From Olivibacter jilunii (lineage in GTDB: Bacteria; Bacteroidota; Bacteroidia; Sphingobacteriales; Sphingobacteriaceae), in assembly GCF_900607235.1 (NCBI RefSeq), contig NZ_LR027848.1:919241-983240 (forward strand): DNA of 64,000 bases. Reading direction: 5' to 3'. The notes under the pieces were generated by a model that was given only the letters and a program-made list of their open reading frames with translations, ran no database searches and was not told where the DNA came from. The position numbers were made by a program, and so were the translations under genes. This document shows positions 53,509-63,817 of this stretch, piece by piece (position 1 is the stretch's first letter; every line of letters starts with the position of its first letter).

Positions 53509-54840
53509 TTATTGAAGCAATTCCTTTAAGGCTCGGTCCACTTTATGGAAACCAAATTCGCCCAGGACCTTATCGAAGAGGTTTTTTATTTCTTTGTTTT
53601 GTAAGTTTCCGATGCTCCCTTCGTGCGTGTGCTTTACTTCCTTAATGGGTTTAAAAGTCCCTTTTTCTATTGCCAAACCGATGTTTTTATAAGCCTCTCT
53701 AAAAGGGACGCCTTGTAACACTTCATGATTCACCACTTCTACACTGAATAAGTAGTTGTATTTTGGATCCTCGAGAATATTTGTATTGACTTTAATATTG
53801 CTCAGCATTAAGTGCATCATTTGAAGGCAGTCGTTGATGGATTGAAAGGCAGGAAATAAATTCTCTTTCAGCAACTGCAAGTCTCGATGATATCCCGAAG
53901 GAAGATTTGTGGTCATCAAAGCGATTTCATTTGGCAAGGCCTGGATTTTATTGCAGCGAGCTCGGATAAGTTCAAAGACGTCCGGGTTTTTTTTATGGGG
54001 CATGATGCTGGATCCTGTGGTCAATTTATCGGGAAAACTAATGAATCCGAAATTTTGATTCATATATAGGCAGGCATCCATGGCCATTTTTGCTAGTGAC
54101 GCGGCGATTGCACTCATTCCTTGTGCTAAGACTCGTTCTGTCTTTCCACGGCCCATCTGTGCGTATACAACGTTGTAGTTTAAGGTCTCAAAACCCAATA
54201 ATTCGGTGGTTAATGTTCTGTTCAATGGAAAGGAAGAACCATAGCCTGCTGCGGAACCCAAAGGGTTCTTATTGCATATCTTCCAAGCGGCCAACATAAG
54301 CTCCAGATCGTCTACTAAGCTTTCAGCGTAAGCACCAAACCAAAGCCCAAATGAGGAAGGCATAGCAATTTGCAAATGGGTATACCCCGGCATTAACACT
54401 TCCCGGTATTGATTACTTAGTTCTATGAGTAGCTCGAATAAAAACTTAGTATTTTCTACAATTTGTTTGATCTCGTTTCTAAAGTAAAGTTTGAGGTCGA
54501 CCAATACCTGATCGTTTCTTGAACGACCACTGTGTATTTTCTTTCCGGCATCTCCGATACGTTGCGTGAGCAATAGCTCAATCTGAGAGTGAACGTCCTC
54601 CACATGCTCATCAATTGTAAAACCACCCGTCTCAATTTCGCGATAAATCTTTTTGAGCTCTTCTTGAATAACCGCTAGTTCGTCTTTTGTCAATAGGCCA
54701 ATGCTTTCGAGCATCTGCGTATGCGCCAGGGATCCTAATACATCAAAAGGAGCCAAAAATATATCAAGTGCTCGATCGTTTCCTACTGTGAATTTTTCGA
54801 CCGATTGCTCTACTTCCGTTTCTTTTTGCCAAAGTTTCAT
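53509..54840 (-). CDS. argH: Argininosuccinate lyase
   Basis: 443 residues. Fumarase-superfamily motifs: SGRSRNDQVLVDLKLY, MPGYTHLQIAMPSSFG, NPLGSAAGYGSSFPLNR, and the signature TGSSIMPHKKNPDVFELIRAR (flexible catalytic loop with SSxMPxKxN). It cleaves argininosuccinate to arginine and fumarate, the last step. Last gene of the arg operon; the spacing to argE (163 bases) is the largest inside the cluster, so an internal promoter is possible. Confidence 0.96.
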   Translation of the reverse strand: MKLWQKETEVEQSVEKFTVGNDRALDIFLAPFDVLGSLAHTQMLESIGLLTKDELAVIQEELKKIYREIETGGFTIDEHVEDVHSQIELLLTQRIGDAGKKIHSGRSRNDQVLVDLKLYFRNEIKQIVENTKFLFELLIELSNQYREVLMPGYTHLQIAMPSSFGLWFGAYAESLVDDLELMLAAWKICNKNPLGSAAGYGSSFPLNRTLTTELLGFETLNYNVVYAQMGRGKTERVLAQGMSAIAASLAKMAMDACLYMNQNFGFISFPDKLTTGSSIMPHKKNPDVFELIRARCNKIQALPNEIALMTTNLPSGYHRDLQLLKENLFPAFQSINDCLQMMHLMLSNIKVNTNILEDPKYNYLFSVEVVNHEVLQGVPFREAYKNIGLAIEKGTFKPIKEVKHTHEGSIGNLQNKEIKNLFDKVLGEFGFHKVDRALKELLQ

Positions 54841-55003
54841 ATGTAAATAATTTGTCTTTGAAAGGTCATATGAATGTCCAGATTATTTTCATTCGAGTTT
54901 GTGTTTTGCAGTCATGGACATTTCATAAGAAATTAAAATTCAAAATTAAAAAGTAAAAAAGCCATTAGCCGAGTGCCAATCTCCGATTGCTGATAACCGA
55001 AAG

Positions 55004-56071
55004 TTAATTGCTAATAGCTAAGACCTTGCTTAGCAAAGCTACATAAAGTTCTATTCCCTCTTCAATTTCGCGAAGATATATAAATTCATCCGCACTATGA
55101 GAGCGGGCGGAATCACCGGGACCCATTTTTAAAGACGGCACCGGAATGAGCGCTTGGTCACTCATGGTGGGCGACCCATATGTTTTCCTGCCTAAAGCCA
55201 CTCCCGCTTTCACAAAAGGATGGTCTTTTGTTATTGATGAAGGATTGAGTCGAGTGGATCTCGGCTGTACATCGCTTGCCACATATTGGCGGATGATAGC
55301 CAGTACTTCTTCATTGGAATAAGCATCGGTTGTGCGCACGTCCACTACATAACTGCAGGTTGCCGGGACTACATTATGTTGGGATCCGGCATTGATGACT
55401 GTTACACTCATTTTTATAGGGCCGAAGATAGCGGATTCTTTAGGGAATTTATAGGCGCGGAACCACTCAATGTCTTTCATGGCTTTATAGATCGCATTAT
55501 CGCCTTCTTCTCTTGCTGCATGTCCTGACGCCCCCTGGGCCATGCAGTCAAGTACCATTAGCCCTTTTTCGGCAATGGCGAGATGCATCTCCGTGGGCTC
55601 ACCTACAATGGCAAAATCTATGGGCTCTAATAAGGGAAATATCAGCTCAATTCCATTCCTTCCTGAGATTTCTTCCTCTGCAGTTGCTGCTATGCATATA
55701 TTGTAATGGAGTTCTTGTAAAGGATAAAAATGTAAGAAAGTTGCGATGAGAGAGACTAGCGGTCCACCTGCATCGTTACTTCCCAAGCCATATAATTTAC
55801 CATCGCTTACAGCTGCTTTAAAGGGATCGCGGGAGTAACCTGTATTCGGTTTTACTGTGTCGTGGTGAGAATTTAATAAAATTGTGGGTTTACGCTTGTC
55901 ATAAAACTGATTGTAAGCCCAAACGTTATTTAACTTCCTATAACAGGGTATATCCCGCTCTTGGAAGAAGCGCTGAATTCGATCTGCTGTCCCGGTTTCT
56001 TCCTTGCTGAAAGATGGAATTTCAATTAGGTCTTTCAATAAATTGATGCTATCCCTTATTAATGCGTCCAT
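55004..56071 (-). CDS. argE: M20-family deacylase, ArgE-type (N-acyl-citrulline or acyl-ornithine)
   Basis: 355 residues. Zinc ligands of the M20 family: LLNSHHDTVKPNTG (His-x-Asp), GLGSNDAGGPLVSL (bridging Asp), AATAEEEISGRNG (catalytic Glu pair), IVGEPTEMHLAI (Asp/Glu), and MGPGDSARSHSADEFI (His). All are present. Because the operon carries argF' (a carbamoyltransferase for acyl-ornithine) and no normal OTC, the substrate is probably N-acyl-citrulline, not acyl-ornithine. Next to proC with a 1-base gap. Confidence 0.88.
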   Translation of the reverse strand: MDALIRDSINLLKDLIEIPSFSKEETGTADRIQRFFQERDIPCYRKLNNVWAYNQFYDKRKPTILLNSHHDTVKPNTGYSRDPFKAAVSDGKLYGLGSNDAGGPLVSLIATFLHFYPLQELHYNICIAATAEEEISGRNGIELIFPLLEPIDFAIVGEPTEMHLAIAEKGLMVLDCMAQGASGHAAREEGDNAIYKAMKDIEWFRAYKFPKESAIFGPIKMSVTVINAGSQHNVVPATCSYVVDVRTTDAYSNEEVLAIIRQYVASDVQPRSTRLNPSSITKDHPFVKAGVALGRKTYGSPTMSDQALIPVPSLKMGPGDSARSHSADEFIYLREIEEGIELYVALLSKVLAISN

Positions 56072-56072
56072 C

Positions 56073-56876
56073 TTATTCCTTATATAGCCCGCCGGCCCGT
56101 TCCGCAGAGAGCTTAATGCCTTTGATAAAGGCAGAGCTAAAACCGTTATGTTCCATCTCGTTTAGGCCGGCAATTGTGCAGCCTTTTGGTGAGGTTACTT
56201 TATCAATTTCGCTTTCCGGATGGCTTTGCATTTGCAATAACAAGTCGGCCGCACCCTTTGCGGTTTGAACAGCCATCTTTAATGCATCGTGGGCATGAAA
56301 TCCAATTTCAACACCTCCCTGAGAAGCCGCGCGAATACTTCTTAAGAAAAAGGCAATCCCGCAAGCACAAAGCGCAGTGGCAGAGGTCATCAAATCTTCA
56401 TTGATGGTAACTACAGCACCTACGGTTTCAAATAAGCGAGTGACCTCGTCCATATGCTGCTCGTGTGCATTATCAGAGGCGATACAAGTCATCGATTGTC
56501 CAATGGCGATAGCGGTGTTCGGCATCGCCCGTATTACTTGTACAGCATCGCCCAGCTTATGACGGATATCTCGGCAGCTTACGCCTGAAATTACTGAAAC
56601 AACAAGCTGTTTATCGGCAATTACGGCTCCATTGATTTGTTCCAATACTTGATTTAGTTGCTGAGGGAGAACCGCCAGAACAATGATATTAGCATCAAGA
56701 ACTGCTTCTCTATTATTGTCCGAAAGCTTAAATCCAAGTTTGGCTTCCTGTGACATATTTCTGATGTTCCTTCTCGTGAGCGTTATATCGGAGGCATTAC
56801 AATAAGCCTTCGCTATCAGTCCTTTTGCCAAGGATAGGCCGATGTTGCCGCTTCCTATGATGGTAATCTTAGGCAT
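56073..56876 (-). CDS. proC: Pyrroline-5-carboxylate reductase
   Basis: 267 residues. ITIIGSGNIGLSLAKGLI (NADP site), IIVLAVLPQQLNQVL, VSVISGVSC, VIRAMPNTAIAIGQSMTCIA, and the family signature near DLLLQMQSHPESEIDKVTSPKGCTIAGLNEMEHNGFSSAF. It makes proline from P5C. Its place between argB and argE is typical of Bacteroidota arg clusters. Whether it has a role with ornithine-derived semialdehyde is not clear from sequence. Confidence 0.93.
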   Translation of the reverse strand: MPKITIIGSGNIGLSLAKGLIAKAYCNASDITLTRRNIRNMSQEAKLGFKLSDNNREAVLDANIIVLAVLPQQLNQVLEQINGAVIADKQLVVSVISGVSCRDIRHKLGDAVQVIRAMPNTAIAIGQSMTCIASDNAHEQHMDEVTRLFETVGAVVTINEDLMTSATALCACGIAFFLRSIRAASQGGVEIGFHAHDALKMAVQTAKGAADLLLQMQSHPESEIDKVTSPKGCTIAGLNEMEHNGFSSAFIKGIKLSAERAGGLYKE

Positions 56877-56900
56877 AATGTTCGTGTTGAATTATTTGCG

Positions 56901-57677
56901 TTAAAAAATGGTTGTTCCTGCTTGCTCATCTGTTAAATCATTCGCATGTTTAATAATTACTTTCTTGACACCTTTTGAAATGGCATCAAAAGCATTATCA
57001 AGTTTTGGAATCATGCCGTCGGCAATAATACCTTGCTCCTTTAACATGCTATAATGAGTACGATTAATTTGCGTAATAACGGAGCCTTCGTCTTCTATAT
57101 CTTTTAATACGCCTCTTTTTTCGAAGCAGTAAATTAGAGAAATATCATAGTTTGAGGCGAGCCCTACGGCTAATGCAGAAGCAATGGTATCGGCATTTGT
57201 GTTTAATAACTGACCTTCTCCGTTATGGGTTATAGCGGAAAATACAGGGCATAAGCCGAGTTCGAGCAGACTTTGGATACGCTTGTTATGAATCGAAGTT
57301 GGGGTCATATCGCCCGCAAATCCATAATCGATCTCTTTGACAGGGCGTTTAATGGTGCGAATCGTGTTCCCATCTGCTCCACTTAGTCCAATCGCATCGC
57401 AGTGGTTCGCTTGTAATAGCGCGACAATGCTTTTGTTTGTCAAGCCGGCATATACCATGGTCACAATTTTCAGCGTTTCGAGATCCGTTATCCGTCTGCC
57501 ATTGACCATTTTTGCCTCGATGCCTAGATCGCTTGCTAACTTACTGGCAATTTTTCCTCCACCGTGCACTAATATTTTCTTTCCTTTCAAATTGGCAAAA
57601 ACGTTAGTAAACGCAGATAGCGCGGTTTCATTCTCTACAATATTGCCACCTATTTTTACGATATTTAGTTTTTCCAT
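56901..57677 (-). CDS. argB: Acetylglutamate (or succinylglutamate) kinase
   Basis: 258 residues from the ATG at 57677; the longer open frame to 57746 overlaps argF' by 46 bases and begins with unrelated sequence. Amino-acid-kinase motifs: NIVKIGGNIV, ILVHGGGKIASKLASDL, VNGRRITDLETLKIV, IGLSGADGNTIRTIK, LNTNADTIASALAVGL. It phosphorylates the gamma-carboxylate of N-acyl-glutamate. The acyl group (acetyl or succinyl) cannot be told from this protein alone. No N-terminal extension is present, so arginine inhibition of the hexameric type is unlikely. Confidence 0.93.
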   Translation of the reverse strand: MEKLNIVKIGGNIVENETALSAFTNVFANLKGKKILVHGGGKIASKLASDLGIEAKMVNGRRITDLETLKIVTMVYAGLTNKSIVALLQANHCDAIGLSGADGNTIRTIKRPVKEIDYGFAGDMTPTSIHNKRIQSLLELGLCPVFSAITHNGEGQLLNTNADTIASALAVGLASNYDISLIYCFEKRGVLKDIEDEGSVITQINRTHYSMLKEQGIIADGMIPKLDNAFDAISKGVKKVIIKHANDLTDEQAGTTIF

Positions 57678-57700
57678 ATGAGGGATTATATAAGTGGCTC

Positions 57701-58699
57701 TTATAGATTTTCCAATATCCTTTTCAATACAACCTGAGCCGCCCATACGCGATTACCAGCCTCTTGAATAACCAATGAGTCCGGACCGTCTAGTAGGGCT
57801 GATGATAATTCCAGATCCCTTCTTACCGGCAAACAATGCATCACTTTTGCATGGTTTGTTACTTTAAGCTTCTCGGGTGTGGGCATCCATTCTCTTCCTG
57901 TAACCAGTATTTTGCCATACTCTTGATAGCTCGACCAATTCTTAACATAGACGAAATCAGCGTTTTTTAGAGCCTCATTCTGATTGGTGGTGATTGTAGC
58001 CCCGTTTGTAAAGTGCTCATCGAGCTCGTATCCTTCAGGATGGGTAATAGTAAAATCTAACAATCCCTGCTCTTGGGCTTTACACATCCATTCGGAGAAT
58101 GAATTGGGAACCGCTTGCGGTAATGCTTTAACATGTGGAGCCCAGGTAAGAACAACTTTTGGCTTGGCTGTAACTGTTGAAAATTTACCGTCCACTTCTT
58201 TAGACGTGGATGGCGTATGCTCTAAGATCGTAATTAAATCTGTTAAGCTTTGAAGCGGGTGACGTGTAGCACTCTCTAAGCTAACAAGGGGTTTTTTGCA
58301 GTAAGTTGAAAATTTATTAAAAAGGTCTTCGCTATAGTCTTCTTTACGATCTTTTAAGCCTGGGAAGGAACGTAAGCCCAAAACATCACAATATTCACCC
58401 ATTACGGCCGCCGCCTCCCGAATATGTTCAACCGTTGTGCCATCCATCACAACGCCATCCCTGGTTTCAAGCGCCCAGCCATCCTTATCCATATTCATGA
58501 CCATAACATCCATTCCCAAGTTTATAGCAGCTTTCTGTGTACTAAGTCGTGTGCGTAAACTTGGATTCAGGAAAACAAGTCCGAGCATCTTATGTTCTCC
58601 CAATTTGCGATGAGCATTCGGTGCAGCTTTAAGCGCTAATGCTTCTTTGACAATAGTTGATAAATTATCTACATCCGCTACTGAAAAAAATTTCTTCAT
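57701..58699 (-). CDS. argF': N-succinylornithine (or N-acetylornithine) carbamoyltransferase, ArgF'
   Basis: 332 residues. Carbamoyl-phosphate site FLNPSLRTRLSTQKAA (SxRTR), MDGTTVEHIREAAAVMG, SLESATRHPLQSLTDLITI (HPxQ), and HCLPVRRDLELS near the end (HCLPVRR). This is the AOTC/SOTC family found in Bacteroidetes and xanthomonads. Position 90 is Val; the Bacteroides fragilis succinyl enzyme has Pro90, the acetyl enzyme Glu92 at the matching position, and changing Glu to Pro, Ser, Ala or Val was reported to switch to succinylornithine. So succinyl is the better guess. It carbamoylates acyl-ornithine to acyl-citrulline. Confidence 0.93.
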   Translation of the reverse strand: MKKFFSVADVDNLSTIVKEALALKAAPNAHRKLGEHKMLGLVFLNPSLRTRLSTQKAAINLGMDVMVMNMDKDGWALETRDGVVMDGTTVEHIREAAAVMGEYCDVLGLRSFPGLKDRKEDYSEDLFNKFSTYCKKPLVSLESATRHPLQSLTDLITILEHTPSTSKEVDGKFSTVTAKPKVVLTWAPHVKALPQAVPNSFSEWMCKAQEQGLLDFTITHPEGYELDEHFTNGATITTNQNEALKNADFVYVKNWSSYQEYGKILVTGREWMPTPEKLKVTNHAKVMHCLPVRRDLELSSALLDGPDSLVIQEAGNRVWAAQVVLKRILENL

Positions 58700-58717
58700 T
58701 GAATCTCTTTTTTAATA

Positions 58718-58794
58718 GTTGTACGTTTTAAGTTACAGGTTGTCCGTTTTAAGCTTTAGGCACTTACGACGTGAAACTTATTACTTATAACTTC
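58718..58794. repeat. 7-bp periodic spacer between argF' and argD
   Basis: Eleven consecutive heptamers (gttgtac, gttttaa, gttacag, gttgtcc, gttttaa, gctttag, gcactta, cgacgtg, aaactta, ttactta, taacttc) fill the spacer and run through the stop codon of argD at 58781-58783. Confidence 0.7.
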
Positions 58795-59920
58795 TTAATC
58801 TCTCCGATAATGCCTCCAAAAACCTGTCCGCCTCCTTCTTTCCTAAATTCAATGCAGGCAGTAAGCGGATCACATTAGGCTTTGCCTCTCCTGTAAATAT
58901 ATGGTTTTTAAATAATAGATCTTTCTTGACCTGATTTAGCTCTTCCGGAAGCTCGATGCCGATCATTAAACCTTCACCTCTTATTTCTTTGATTTTATCA
59001 AATCCCTTTAATTCGCTCATTAAATAGCGTCCAATTTGCAATGCGTTCTGCACGAGTTGTTCCTTCTCCATCGTCTCCAAAACGGCTAAGGCGGCTACGC
59101 ATGCAAGATGATTCCCCCCGAAAGTGGTACCTAATTCACCAAACCAAGGCTTAATCTTGGGTGAAATGGAAATGGCACCTATCGGGAAGCCATTACCCAT
59201 ACCCTTGGCCATGCTATAAATATCTGCTTGTACGTTTGCATGGTCATGGGAGTAAAATTTTCCGGAGCGTCCGTAGCCGCATTGTACAGAATCAGCAATA
59301 AAGATTGCATTATACTGTTCGGTTAAGCTCCGTATTTTCTGAAGGAAGCTGTGGTTGGCTACCCGTATACCACCAACGCCTTGAATTCCTTCAATAATGA
59401 CGGAAGATATCGCTTCTCCTTGTTCCGCAAAGATTTTTTCAAGTGCGTCTTCGTCATTGAAAGGAAGGAAAATAACATTTTCCGTCTCGTTTACCGGAGC
59501 GATAATCTTGGGATTGTCAGTTGCCGAAACCGCTAGTGATGTTCTTCCGTGGAAAGCGCCTTTGAATGCGATCACTTTTTTGCGACCATTGTAAAAAGAC
59601 GCCAATTTGAGCGCATTCTCATTAGCTTCGGCGCCGGAGTTACATAAAAAAAGCTGGTAATCTTTTTTGTCAGAAACTTTGCCCAGTAGCTCAGCGAGTT
59701 GTTTTTGAAGCGGTATCTCAATCGAATTAGAGTAAAAACCTATCTTATTCAGTTGATCTGTTATACGCTGTATATAATGCGGATGGCTATGGCCTATGGA
59801 GATAACTGCGTGTCCTCCATATAGGTCTAAGTATTCCCGGCCAGTGGCATCATAAACATAAGAGCCAACTCCTTTTACAATTTCAATGGGATTTATAGGG
59901 TATACGTCAAAGAGTTTCAT
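58781..59920 (-). CDS. argD: Acetylornithine/succinylornithine aminotransferase
   Basis: 379 residues of the class III PLP aminotransferase family. YLDLYGGHAVISIGHSHPHYIQ, LFLCNSGAEANENALKLA (SGAEANE), FKGAFHGRTSLAVSATDN, VIIEGIQGVGGIRVA (Glu), FIADSVQCGYGRSGKFYSHDH (Asp-x-Val-Gln), YSMAKGMGNGFPIGAI (PLP Lys in AKGMGNG), GTTFGGNHLACVAALAVLE. It converts acylglutamate semialdehyde to acylornithine. The C-terminal five codons and stop fall within a 7-bp periodic spacer. Confidence 0.93.
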   Translation of the reverse strand: MKLFDVYPINPIEIVKGVGSYVYDATGREYLDLYGGHAVISIGHSHPHYIQRITDQLNKIGFYSNSIEIPLQKQLAELLGKVSDKKDYQLFLCNSGAEANENALKLASFYNGRKKVIAFKGAFHGRTSLAVSATDNPKIIAPVNETENVIFLPFNDEDALEKIFAEQGEAISSVIIEGIQGVGGIRVANHSFLQKIRSLTEQYNAIFIADSVQCGYGRSGKFYSHDHANVQADIYSMAKGMGNGFPIGAISISPKIKPWFGELGTTFGGNHLACVAALAVLETMEKEQLVQNALQIGRYLMSELKGFDKIKEIRGEGLMIGIELPEELNQVKKDLLFKNHIFTGEAKPNVIRLLPALNLGKKEADRFLEALSERLRSYK

Positions 59921-59923
59921 TGC

Positions 59924-59958
59924 GTTATGAGTATTAAGTTTTACGTTTTAAGCTATCG
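59924..59958. repeat. 7-bp periodic spacer between argD and the four-helix gene
   Basis: Heptamers gttatga, gtattaa, gttttac, gttttaa, gctatcg run from just after the argD start through the stop of the four-helix gene (59948-59950). Confidence 0.65.
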
Positions 59959-60310
59959 TGCTACGTATTTTTGTTATGAGCGAAATGAGCATTGCTTTTA
60001 TCTGATTAATTTCGTCGTTGAGCGATTCAAAAGTTTTTTGTGATAAATAGCCTAAATCATTTGCAAGTAGTAAAAAGTATTCTGTTTCGTTTGCAGATCC
60101 TAACGAAATGCTCAAAAAGTGAATAAAATCTTTTTGGGAGGGCCTTCCACATCTTTCTGCAATATTCGCAGGTATAGAAGCTGTAGACCTCCGCAACTGA
60201 CTGGTTAAACCGTATTGTTCTTCTTTAGGAAAAGCCGCGCTGATTTTATAGATATTAAGAGTAGTTTGATGCGACTTTACCCATACAATCAATTCTTTAT
60301 AATTTTGCAT
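59948..60310 (-). CDS. Four-helix bundle protein (S23/IVP family), inserted in the arg operon
   Basis: 120 residues. ELIVWVKSHQTTLNIYKISAAF, FPKEEQYGLTSQLRRSTASIPANIAERC, FIHFLSISLGSANETEYFLLLANDL. Same family as 44522-44881. It lies on the operon strand between argD and argC, flanked on both sides by 7-bp periodic DNA, and has no link to arginine synthesis that I know. The NIAEG-type motif is changed to NIAERCGR. Insertion of such genes between unrelated operon genes is seen in other Bacteroidota to my recollection. Confidence 0.85.
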   Translation of the reverse strand: MQNYKELIVWVKSHQTTLNIYKISAAFPKEEQYGLTSQLRRSTASIPANIAERCGRPSQKDFIHFLSISLGSANETEYFLLLANDLGYLSQKTFESLNDEINQIKAMLISLITKIRSTIA

Positions 60311-60314
60311 TTTG

Positions 60315-60356
60315 AAGTTAAACGTATAACATACTACTTATAACTTATAACTTAAA
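60315..60356. repeat. 7-bp periodic spacer between the four-helix gene and argC
   Basis: Heptamers aagttaa, acgtata, acatact, acttata, acttata, acttaaa cover the whole spacer and include the argC stop codon at 60352-60354. Confidence 0.7.
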
Positions 60357-61323
60357 AACCAACGGCTTTAAGCTTCAATCCAGTCGTTTCCTCCAATCCG
60401 AATAGAAGATTCATGTTTTGTACGGCTTGTCCGCTTGCACCTTTTAGAAGATTATCGATGATGGAGATAATCATCAATTTAGTACCATGTTTCTCTAAAT
60501 GAATCAGTGCTTTATTCGTGTTCACCACTTGTTTTAAATCGATGTTGCCCGGACTTACGTGAGTAAATGGATGACTTGCATAATAGTGGCTATATAAATC
60601 TGATGCCTCCTCTATAGATAATGTTGACTCCAAATAAGTACAGGCTAAAATACCTCGGGTAAATGCACCACGTTGTGGCACAAAATTGATTGTTTGATCA
60701 AACGAAGATTGCAGTTGAATAAGACTTTCTCCGATCTCATGTAGATGTTGATGCTCGAAAGCCTTATATACGGAAAGGTTATTATTCCTCCAGCTAAAAT
60801 GGGATGTCGGTGATAAGCTCTGTCCGGCACCGGTAGAGCCGGTTGTTGCATTGATATGTATTTCCGAAGCCAGCAGTCCTTTAGCTGCCAACGGCAGCAA
60901 GCCCAATTGAATCGCTGTAGCAAAACAGCCCGGGTTCGCGATATGCTGCGCCGTTTTTATTTTATCCCGTTGAAGCTCGGGTAAACCATAAACAAAGTTT
61001 TCCGCCTTTGACTTCAATCTGTAATCCTGGCTCAGATCAATTATCCGAATGGATTCGGCTATCCGGTTTGCCTCTAAAAATTTCCGGGCCGCACCATGAC
61101 CAACACACAGAAATAAGACATCAATATTTTGGGGAAGCTCATCGGTAAATTTCAGCTCTGTATCGCCAAATAGATCAGTATGCACGGAATGAACCGGGTT
61201 CCCTGCGTTACTGTTACTATTGACAAAGGCAACTTCTACATGAGGATGATTAATGAGAACCCTTAAAAGCTCTCCTCCGGTATAGCCGGCTCCGCCAACA
61301 ATCCCTACTTTTATTTTATTCAT
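60352..61323 (-). CDS. argC: N-acetyl-gamma-glutamyl-phosphate reductase
   Basis: 323 residues from the ATG at 61323; the frame extends to 61395 but that part is 7-bp repeat DNA. VGIVGGAGYTGGELLRVL (NADP), FLCVGHGAARKFL, VYGLPEL, and the catalytic Cys in IANPGCFATAIQLGLLPL. SLSPTSHFSWRNNNLSVYKAFEHQHLHEIGE (active-site His). Short-form ArgC of the type in Bacteroidota. It reduces acylglutamyl phosphate to the semialdehyde. Confidence 0.94.
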   Translation of the reverse strand: MNKIKVGIVGGAGYTGGELLRVLINHPHVEVAFVNSNSNAGNPVHSVHTDLFGDTELKFTDELPQNIDVLFLCVGHGAARKFLEANRIAESIRIIDLSQDYRLKSKAENFVYGLPELQRDKIKTAQHIANPGCFATAIQLGLLPLAAKGLLASEIHINATTGSTGAGQSLSPTSHFSWRNNNLSVYKAFEHQHLHEIGESLIQLQSSFDQTINFVPQRGAFTRGILACTYLESTLSIEEASDLYSHYYASHPFTHVSPGNIDLKQVVNTNKALIHLEKHGTKLMIISIIDNLLKGASGQAVQNMNLLFGLEETTGLKLKAVGF

Positions 61324-61332
61324 ATCAGAATA

Positions 61333-61420
61333 GTTTTGAGTTATAAGTAATACGTTATACGTTTTTTTCTTACTCACTCGATACTTATAACTCATTACTT
61401 AAAACTTACAACTTATTAAC
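61333..61420. repeat. 7-bp periodic spacer between argC and argG
   Basis: Two runs of heptamers, gttttga-gttataa-gtaatac-gttatac (61333-61360) and gatactt-ataactc-attactt-aaaactt-acaactt-attaacc (61380-61421), with a short T-rich break. The second run includes the argG stop codon at 61406-61408 and its last codons. Confidence 0.7.
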
Positions 61421-62593
61421 CTTATGCCATATCATTACTTGATTTCCAAAGATTTTAGAGAATCCCTTTACATCTTCGCCAGTCCATGCATTATTCATCT
61501 CTCCATAACTTCCGAACTTACTGGACATTAAATCATGCTTGGATTCCACGCCAATTATATTAAATCGATACGGGTTTAATTCAACGAATACTTGACCACT
61601 GACCATTTCCTGTGAGCTTTGCAAAAAGGCTTCAATATCTCTCATAATAGGATCATGAAATTGCCCCTCGTGCATCCAGTTACCATAAAAAGAAGCTAAC
61701 TGATCTTTCCAACTTAACTGCCATTTCGTAAGTGTGTGTTTTTCAAGTGTATGATGAGCTTTAATAATAACAACCGGTGCTGCCGCTTCAAAACCGACTC
61801 TTCCTTTGATGCCAATGATTGTGTCTCCTACGTGTATATCTCTTCCTATTCCGTATGGCTGGGCAATCGACTGCAATTTTTGTATCACTTTTACCGGACC
61901 TAGCCGTTCACCGTCAAGTGCTACCGGCTCACCTTTCTCGAATTCGATGGTAATTCTTCTGCTTTCACTTGCTGTCACTTGTGTGGGCCATGCTTCTTCC
62001 GGTAATGTTTCATGGGATGTTAAGGTTTCTTTTCCTCCCACTGAAGTGCCCCAAATGCCTTTATTAATCGAGTATTTTGCTTTTTCGGCACTGTAGGTTA
62101 CACCATGATTATGCAAGTAATCGATTTCAGATTCGCGGCTTAATTTCAAGTCCCTAATAGGTGTTATGATTTCTACGTCCGGAATCAGGATATTAAAGAT
62201 CATATCGAAACGTACTTGATCATTACCTGCACCAGTACTTCCATGGGCAACGAAGTTTGCGTCGATTTTCTTTACATAGTTTGCAATTGCAGTTGCTTGG
62301 CATACACGCTCGGCACTTACCGATAAGGGATAGGTTGCATTTTTTAATACGTTACCGTAGATAAGATACTTTATACTTTCGTTATAATAGTTTTGGGTTT
62401 CATCAACTGTAGCATGTGACGCAACACCGAGCTCATAAGCGCGTGCTTCGATCTGTTTAAGTTCATCTTCCGAAAATCCTCCCGTATTGACGATGACGGA
62501 ATGAACTTCTAAGCCCATATCTTTGGATAGGTAAATGGCACAGAATGAGGTGTCTAATCCTCCACTAAATGCTAATACTACTTTCTTTTTCAT
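61406..62593 (-). CDS. argG: Argininosuccinate synthase
   Basis: 395 residues. Family start VVLAFSGGLDTSFCAIYL (P-loop-like PP motif SGGLDTS), VAHGSTGAGNDQVRFD, WGTSVGGKETLT, GRDIHVGDTIIGIKGRVGFEAAAPV. It condenses citrulline and aspartate. The C-terminus ends inside a repeat (HKVNKL). There is a 180-base gap to the GNAT gene upstream with a small palindrome (TTACTG/CAGTAA near 62745-62761). Confidence 0.95.
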   Translation of the reverse strand: MKKKVVLAFSGGLDTSFCAIYLSKDMGLEVHSVIVNTGGFSEDELKQIEARAYELGVASHATVDETQNYYNESIKYLIYGNVLKNATYPLSVSAERVCQATAIANYVKKIDANFVAHGSTGAGNDQVRFDMIFNILIPDVEIITPIRDLKLSRESEIDYLHNHGVTYSAEKAKYSINKGIWGTSVGGKETLTSHETLPEEAWPTQVTASESRRITIEFEKGEPVALDGERLGPVKVIQKLQSIAQPYGIGRDIHVGDTIIGIKGRVGFEAAAPVVIIKAHHTLEKHTLTKWQLSWKDQLASFYGNWMHEGQFHDPIMRDIEAFLQSSQEMVSGQVFVELNPYRFNIIGVESKHDLMSSKFGSYGEMNNAWTGEDVKGFSKIFGNQVMIWHKVNKL

Positions 62594-62773: not shown

Positions 62774-63469
62774 CTAATCGTACGCTAAAAACAAGGTAGC
62801 GATAATTTTGCTCCTTCTTCTCAAACTTAATTCGATACGTTTTAATAAGGAGTGCTTTTTTTGCATCTGTTTCAAACGTTCTTTTGCTTTCGCTTTTTGC
62901 TCAATTTTTTGTCGAAGCTCTTTTTCCTTCTCCACAGGGTCCCATAACATAGCTGTGCACATACAATTTTTACGGTCTTTACTCATTAAGATATCGTAAT
63001 TTACACAACTTTGACAACCTTTCCAAAATTCTTCGTCTTGGGTTAACTCTGAATAGGGGACGGGTTCATACCCCAGCTCCGAATTGATTTTCATTACTGC
63101 AAAACCAGTGGTCAGACCAAAGATTTTTGCCTTCGGGTATTTTTCGCGCGATAAGTCAAAAATCCGCTTTTTAATAGCTTTAGCTAACCCTTCTTTTCGG
63201 AAAACCGGATTAACGATGAGGCCGGAATTGGCAACATATTCACCATGGCTCCAAGTTTCGATATAACAAAAACCTGCCCAAGTGCCATCTTTATGGAGCG
63301 CTATTACAGCTTTTCCCTCAAGCATCTTATTAGCAATATATTCCGGTTTTCGACGTGCAATACCCGTACCGCGTGCTTTGGCAGATTCCGCCATTTCATT
63401 GCAAATCTGTTCGGCATATCCGATATGCGATTCATTTGCAGGAATAACAACAAAATTTGAAGTATTCAT
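62774..63469 (-). CDS. GNAT acyltransferase, candidate acylglutamate synthase
   Basis: 231 residues from the ATG at 63469; the longer frame adds 13 unlike residues. GNAT fold: IGYAEQICNEMAESAKARGTGIARR, VIALHKDGTWAGFCYIE, GLIVNPVFRKEGLAKAIKKRIFDLSR (acetyl-CoA pyrophosphate loop in the RKEGLAKAI form), KIFGLTTGFAVMKINSELGYEPVPY. Then a Cys cluster: Cys152, Cys155, Cys169, Cys171 (CQSC ... CMC), possibly metal binding. First protein-coding gene of the arg operon. No argA or argJ is in the cluster, so this gene is a natural candidate for making N-acylglutamate. That is inference from position; the acyl donor is unknown. Confidence 0.85.
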   Translation of the reverse strand: MNTSNFVVIPANESHIGYAEQICNEMAESAKARGTGIARRKPEYIANKMLEGKAVIALHKDGTWAGFCYIETWSHGEYVANSGLIVNPVFRKEGLAKAIKKRIFDLSREKYPKAKIFGLTTGFAVMKINSELGYEPVPYSELTQDEEFWKGCQSCVNYDILMSKDRKNCMCTAMLWDPVEKEKELRQKIEQKAKAKERLKQMQKKHSLLKRIELSLRRRSKIIATLFLAYD

Positions 63470-63603
63470 TGAATGTGAATGACCCAAGAGAACAAAACAA
63501 TAAAACACATTTTGCTCTACCGTTTGATTTTGATTACCTTTTTGTTAATTGTTTTTGATGGATACAATAACCGGACTCGCTATTGTACTTTTTGTGGAGT
63601 GGG

Positions 63604-63631
63604 TATGCCCTCGAATCAAGCCCGGGGCATA
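63604..63631 (-). promoter_or_regulatory. Hairpin overlapping the end of the arg leader ORF
   Basis: TATGCCC pairs with GGGCATA (arms 63625-63631 and 63604-63610) around a 14-base loop that holds the leader stop codon (63616-63618). A second hairpin, TACAATA/TATTGTA, lies downstream at 63563-63587. Neither has a T-run, so they suit translational control or antitermination rather than simple intrinsic termination. Confidence 0.5.
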
Positions 63632-63750
63632 ATGGGTCGTCGGACTCTTAAAACAAGTTTGTTGCCAATCGCTTTTATGCACGGGATTACTTGCGCACTT
63701 CCTGGATTGGAATGCTTAGCAATATTTATATGCATATTAGCAATATTCAT
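63616..63750 (-). CDS. Arginine-rich leader peptide of the arg operon (44 aa)
   Basis: An ATG at 63750 opens a 44-codon frame ending with TGA at 63616. The peptide begins MNIANMHINIAKHS and ends LVLRVRRPIMPRA, with four Arg among the last ten residues, encoded by AGA, CGA, CGA and CGG. It lies about 30 bases after the predicted transcription start and 146 bases before the GNAT start, exactly where an attenuator leader peptide would be. A hairpin overlaps its last codons. The natural reading is that low arginyl-tRNA stalls ribosomes at these codons and changes mRNA folding to favour expression. I saw this only in this sequence and have not compared it with relatives. Confidence 0.6.
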   Translation of the reverse strand: MNIANMHINIAKHSNPGSAQVIPCIKAIGNKLVLRVRRPIMPRA

Positions 63751-63785
63751 GTTATAAAGAATCTTTCCTTATTTAATAATGGTTG

Positions 63786-63817
63786 CAAATGTAAAAAATA
63801 AAATTTGGTTTATGCAA
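63786..63817 (-). promoter_or_regulatory. arg operon promoter (TTG, 21-base spacer, TACATTTG)
   Basis: On the minus strand TTG (63817-63815) and TACATTTG (63793-63786) match the Bacteroidetes -33/-7 consensus with a 21-base spacer. Transcription would begin near 63780 and give a leader of about 310 bases before the GNAT gene, containing the leader ORF. Confidence 0.65.

Follow-up and report, generated by a model that had tools for sequence, protein, structure and literature searches.

A candidate arginine-sensing leader peptide ahead of the arginine biosynthesis operon of Olivibacter jilunii

The leader, its RNA fold and the operon

The leader ORF, composed of 44 codons and a TGA stop, lies on the minus strand at 63616–63750 of the window (the whole 64,000-nucleotide stretch that was analysed) and is recognisable both in the sequence and in relatives. 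The encoded peptide ends in LRVRRPIMPRA, with four Arg among its last ten residues, specified by AGA, CGA, CGA, and CGG. Upstream, a promoter-like TTG-N21-TACATTTG occupies 63786–63817 (−), with TTG at 63815–63817 and TACATTTG at 63786–63793. The ORF with its Arg-rich end and the minus-strand promoter had both been described in the original prediction, and both are present in the sequence at these positions. A strict promoter consensus, TTG-N18–22-TAnnTTTG at most 110 nt from the leader ATG, occurs in 24 of 145 relatives versus 0.3% of shuffles; the consensus is enriched, yet a strict match is absent from most relatives. Rfam covariance models run over the whole window gave no match at gathering score, the best sub-threshold match being greA (17.3 bits, gathering score 60). 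The heptamer GAGTCCG is present twice in the window, once within the leader (63641–63647) and once in the P2 loop described below (63572–63578).

The predicted fold of 63450–63660, with an MFE of −45.9 kcal/mol (z = −2.05; equalled or bettered by 7 of 200 shuffles), contains the hairpins P1, P2, and P3 and a long-range pair, P0, all on the minus strand. P1, the stop-codon hairpin (63605–63630), is seen in the fold and in an alignment of relatives and joins the arms AUGCCC (63625–63630) and GGGCAU (63605–63610). Its loop displays K1, GGGCUU (63618–63623), drawn from the codons CGG GCT and the first base of TGA. P2 (63562–63588), identified by the fold and a swapped-arm test, is built from arms at 63579–63588 and 63562–63571 and presents in its loop K2, GAGUCC (63573–63578), which is complementary to K1. 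P3 (63495–63525), predicted by the fold, is an A/U-rich hairpin with many G-U pairs, positioned between P2 and the start region. P0, predicted by both fold and comparison, connects GACCCA (63633–63638), within the leader codons CGA-CCC-ATT, to UGGGUC (63481–63486), which ends 11 nt before the GNAT start codon. The two hairpins proposed earlier (63604–63631 and 63563–63587) recur in the fold as P1 and P2; P0, the loop-loop complementarity of P1 and P2, and P3 were absent from that description.

The first operon gene, encoding a GNAT-like acetyltransferase for which the GNAT matches are weak only, spans 62774–63469 (−), with a start codon at 63467–63469 picked by conservation among relatives. 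It is followed on the same strand (53509–62593) by argG, argC, a four-helix-bundle gene, argD, argF', argB, proC, an argE-like gene, and argH, in that order. These assignments derive from profile matches, several of which fall under NCBI's curated cut-offs. The argF' product resembles N-acetylornithine carbamoyltransferase, and the argE-like product is an ArgE/DapE-like deacylase. The four-helix-bundle gene, between argC and argD at 59948–60310 (−), belongs to the 23S rRNA intervening-sequence protein family (PF05635). A second GNAT relative (~50% identity) is present in some genomes, with in-frame stops in some of the copies; one such relative, L006 (G001:C10), is without an Arg-tailed leader.

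Conservation of the arginine-coding tail

Searches with the GNAT protein gave matches in 5 of 5 genomes of the genus and 228 of 251 of the family, and 80 of 501 loci were retained from a named genome collection. Together with 80 further upstream regions from family genomes, one of them shortened by its contig, this gave 191 upstream regions, 162 of them distinct over the last 230 nt. An ATG-initiated ORF of 15–80 aa with at least three Arg within the last 12 residues is found in 147 of the 162 distinct regions versus 8 of 162 in the reverse-strand control, which rules out a chance ORF. Among the 15 misses, L005, L024, L097, and L112 keep an in-frame CGACGACC tail and fall short of the start or length rule, and L103, L104, and L111 have tails with fewer Arg. 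The amino-acid pattern RRP..P by itself recovers the tail in 78 of 111 loci. A conserved short ORF with Arg codons before an arginine biosynthetic operon is what is generally expected of a leader-peptide attenuator, and the anticipated ORF ending in R-x-R-R-P, with synonymous changes, is indeed found in relatives.

Codon usage within the tail points to the amino acid itself. Of the 115 leaders with an in-frame CGACGACC, 105 retain the Arg two codons upstream, with all six Arg codons in use, and 110 retain the last Arg, encoded by CGA, CGG, AGA, or AGG. Because these two residues are preserved through six and four different codons, arginine itself appears, from sequence comparison, to be under selection in the leader tail. 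The central CGA CGA is fixed by the selection rule of this 115-leader set, so that only the 63 distinct leaders picked by amino-acid motif speak for it; there it is found in 63 of 63. Pausing at CGA as a rare codon is unsupported, since CGA makes up 17% of Arg codons (120 of 693, counted in window ORFs above 200 aa, a set that may hold spurious overlapping frames). The invariance of CGA CGA, although CGA is not rare, would be explained by P0 pairing. A multi-copy general regulon was likewise set aside: the exact pattern, which misses diverged leaders, occurs in 9 of 80 genomes with one copy each, and the reversed control gave 0. In 40 close pairs, 60 of 94 changed codons within the last 16 are synonymous versus 22 expected.

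The exact form of the tail could also reflect an arrest peptide, in which the nascent RRPxxPRA end would bind arginine and, at high arginine, halt the ribosome on the stop codon; SpeFL provides a precedent for nascent-peptide stalling of this kind, with ornithine as the ligand. The tail is conserved as far as the stop codon, and the ORF is exactly 44 aa long in 98 of 147 leaders despite widely differing N-terminal sequences, both as an arrest peptide would have it. Tails in other genera nevertheless differ (SRVTRVRA, SRRRLFIPRV, IPRRR) and have mainly Arg in common, and conservation of the tail is partly a consequence of P0, P1, and K1 pairing. We regard an arrest peptide as quite improbable.

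The N-terminal part of the leader is under some coding constraint, with 120 of 328 changed codons synonymous versus 56.5 expected in the same pairs, which would suit a small protein; a fold that is conserved and covarying would suit a structured RNA. Either might work with no ribosome stalled at the Arg codons. Changes from CGN to AGR leave Arg identity intact, however, and the N-terminus varies widely by genus while the Arg tail stays, both of which argue against a role independent of stalling; the leader peptide has no match in Pfam, which counts against a small protein. Such an account is a very distant prospect. The preferred reading, in which the ribosome itself reads the Arg codons, is taken up below with the pairing data.

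Pairing in relatives and the likely output

In relatives, P0 joins the Arg codons CGA-CGA-CCN to an NGGUC shortly before the GNAT start codon. GGTC is found within the last 34 nt before the gene in 79 of the 115 CGACGACC leaders; in 76 of these 79 its end lies 8–11 nt upstream of the start codon. The variable pair of P0, formed by position 3 of the CCN codon and the nucleotide preceding GGTC, is C-G in 21 regions, T-A in 42, T-G in 10, A-A in 5, and C-A in 1, and is thus compatible in 73 of 79 and mismatched in 6. Outside the invariant core, P0 strands score 6.8 with their own partners and 5.8 when partners are swapped (top of 500 swaps, 6.4).

The kissing loops were followed in 80 regions with suitable last codons, three of which lack the loop motif, a motif that by itself occurs in 18% of shuffles. 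The third base of the last Arg codon and the P2 loop combine as A-CTC (45 regions), G-TCC (28), G-CTC (3), and A-TCC (1), and are compatible in 76 of the 77 regions having the motif. The A-TCC case is L011, whose loop reads AAGCTCGA, and looks like a first-match artefact. P2 was scored by swapping arms, not by column, because the register of the stem differs between clades; its native arm pairs score 15.7 and swapped ones 9.0 (highest, 10.3). In L015 the P2 loop motif is absent and P0 is kept.

A structure alignment of 34 rows chosen from the 81 available, in which L021 is misaligned at P0, has 90.3% of 680 cells paired versus 86.2% in shuffles, and 40 cells changed on both sides versus 15.6. 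Its covariation score of 0.215 (0.143 in shuffles) is matched by 0 of 500 shuffles. The number of pairs with two-sided changes, 5, is not unusual in this alignment (shuffle mean 3.8; 91 of 500 as high), and its 15 further pair types are reached by 30 of 500 shuffles. Sliding the alignment by 1 to 3 columns lowers pairing to 26 to 45.4%. Together with the P2 arm scores, the covariation score bears out the covarying hairpins that had been predicted for relatives. When mapped on a tree of GNAT genes, the two bases of P0 show 3 and 4 changes, those of K 5 and 3. Well-supported branches supply two independent pairs for P0 and three for K, too few for a test; in these the partner moves the same way on average 0.9 (P0) and 0.7 (K) times and the opposite way never.

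On these grounds we interpret the element, with moderate confidence, as an arginine-sensing leader-peptide attenuator, most likely with translation as its target. Putative sensing of arginine via charged tRNA-Arg is well supported by the comparison of relatives. With charged tRNA-Arg plentiful, the ribosome would complete the leader and depart, whereupon P1, P2, the kissing loops, and P0 could all form; P0 would then close the GNAT initiation region and lower translation of the operon. With charged tRNA-Arg scarce, the ribosome would stall at CGA-CGA, covering the 5' strand of P0 and disturbing P1, and the initiation region would remain open. Stalling at AGA/CGA/CGA/CGG as a sensor of charged tRNA-Arg was already part of the original prediction; the conserved Arg identity agrees with it, and the stalling we infer. 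When a masked ribosome is placed in the fold, in models that leave out the loop-loop pair, the chance that GGUC is unpaired (baseline 0.03) becomes 0.23 and 0.24 for the two CGA codons and 0.12 for the stop codon. The mean unpaired chance over −20 to +4 goes from 0.38 to 0.43–0.44, against 0.42 with the ribosome further upstream. Because this start-region mean rises only so far, the model speaks more strongly for a masked P0 strand than for a start region opened along its full length.

Classical transcription attenuation offers another reading of the same leader: P3, with its U-rich 3' side, would be the terminator, and the position of the ribosome on the Arg codons would decide between terminator and antiterminator. 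The interval between leader and gene does contain structures scored as terminator-like in 19 of the 79 leaders that have GGTC (shuffles, 2%) and in 12 of the 36 that lack it (0.8%), the latter being L002, L084, L094, L148, L152, L154, L156, L159, L160, L166, L170, and L187, and the stretch before NGGTC has a mean fold of −5.9 versus −3.7 kcal/mol in shuffles, with 6.5 T in 10. Against this, no five-T run follows P3 in the window, P3 is gone from L045 although P0 remains, and other leaders lack a notable excess of terminator-like structures (3 of 36 versus 2.5%). P0, moreover, lies beyond the supposed terminator and would therefore be without a role. We consider transcription attenuation unlikely as the explanation here and infer that output in the window's organism is probably translational rather than transcriptional, via P0. 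The translational control proposed earlier thereby gains a candidate element in P0, tempered by terminator-like structures in some relatives and by the 36 of 115 leaders that lack GGTC, the P0 3' strand; L002 and L005, from the window's own genus, are among these 36. In relatives with terminator-like hairpins between leader and gene, transcription may be what this sensor controls.

In L084, L094, L152, L154, L160, and similar leaders, which belong to related genera without the P0 GGTC strand, the gene is preceded by two hairpins in a row, AAAGACT..AGTCTTTTTT and CCG..CGGATTTTTT or similar ones.

Known attenuators, ArgR and the reach of the leader

The trp/his-type attenuators of enterobacteria combine a short ORF holding codons of the regulated amino acid with hairpins around the ORF end. 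The leader described here resembles them in its Arg-codon ORF before an arginine operon and in its hairpins by the ORF end; it differs in amino acid (arginine) and phylum (Bacteroidota), in having no clear terminator in the window, in the predicted pairing between the sensing codons and the first gene's start region, and in the loop-loop complementarity at the stop codon. In ermC-type translational attenuators, a start region that is otherwise sequestered is understood to be released by the position of a ribosome on the leader ORF, with an antibiotic as the signal. Freeing of a sequestered start region by a leader ribosome is likewise proposed here, but the signal would be charged tRNA-Arg and the masked strand would be the codons themselves. 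The SpeFL/orf34 leader of speF, with a leader ORF, alternative mRNA folds, and a link to arginine-family metabolites, shares all three of these features and differs in gene, phylum, and peptide motif. A comparative study of attenuation by Lopatovskaya et al. in 2010 reportedly exists and might list the element.

In Staphylococcus aureus, rbfL is an Arg-codon leader that responds to a shortage of arginine at the level of translation, the stalled ribosome blocking the next RBS so that expression falls (PMC13009471). The present leader differs in that stalling would raise expression, through a long-range pair, and in standing before arginine biosynthesis genes. For F. psychrophilum, clues of leader-peptide attenuation before amino-acid operons have been presented, with arginine not named in the accessible part of that paper (PMC9723704). 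The element is undescribed in the open-access literature searched, and the available parts of PMC8632094, PMC7366714, and PMC4833913 contain no description of it.

The absence of a nearby argR, pointed out in the original prediction, extends to the genome: a profile search for ArgR (PF01316) found no match in the window's genome and none in 121 genomes of its family, with matches in 9 of 14 control genomes. The leader probably lets the ribosome itself sense arginine, the usual arginine repressor not having been found. Across 148 sampled Bacteroidota genomes, PF01316 is present in 55 and the GNAT-type first gene in 61; both occur together only in G309 (five matches at E 1.6e-7) and G330 (one at E 1.1e-5), where the ArgR matches are weak. 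This mutual exclusion follows clades, not many independent events.

Sixty extra regions were assessed for the Arg tail only. An ORF with at least three Arg in the last 14 residues is present in 25 of 40 upstream regions from other families (control, 6) and in 7 of 20 further regions from the window's family (control, 1), with ends such as RIPRRR*, TRRRP*, VRRPRI*, and RRPYMPRV*; many of the remaining family regions end in TPRI* with fewer Arg. In family f34, leaders L204, L206, L210, and L214 end in CGT CGC ... CCG TAA GGG; one hairpin there has the stop codon in or beside its loop, and another, farther downstream, carries AGGTGAGTCC in the loop.

An evenly balanced proposal is that a widespread leader-peptide RNA controls arginine biosynthesis in Bacteroidota outside the ArgR-bearing group, tRNA-Arg sensing replacing ArgR. 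In the clade that unites Sphingobacterium, Parapedobacter, and the window's genus, the Arg codons would serve at once as sensor and as the strand closing off the operon start region, held by the kissing pair of the stop-codon hairpin and the second hairpin. How arginine synthesis is controlled in the ArgR-less group is not described in the papers found, and a leader read by the ribosome would provide an answer. In the available text of PMC6847099, Bacteroidota mRNAs are without Shine-Dalgarno sequences and initiation is tuned by mRNA structure. A design whose sensing codons double as the sequestering strand would illustrate a way for attenuation to work at translation initiation without a Shine-Dalgarno sequence.
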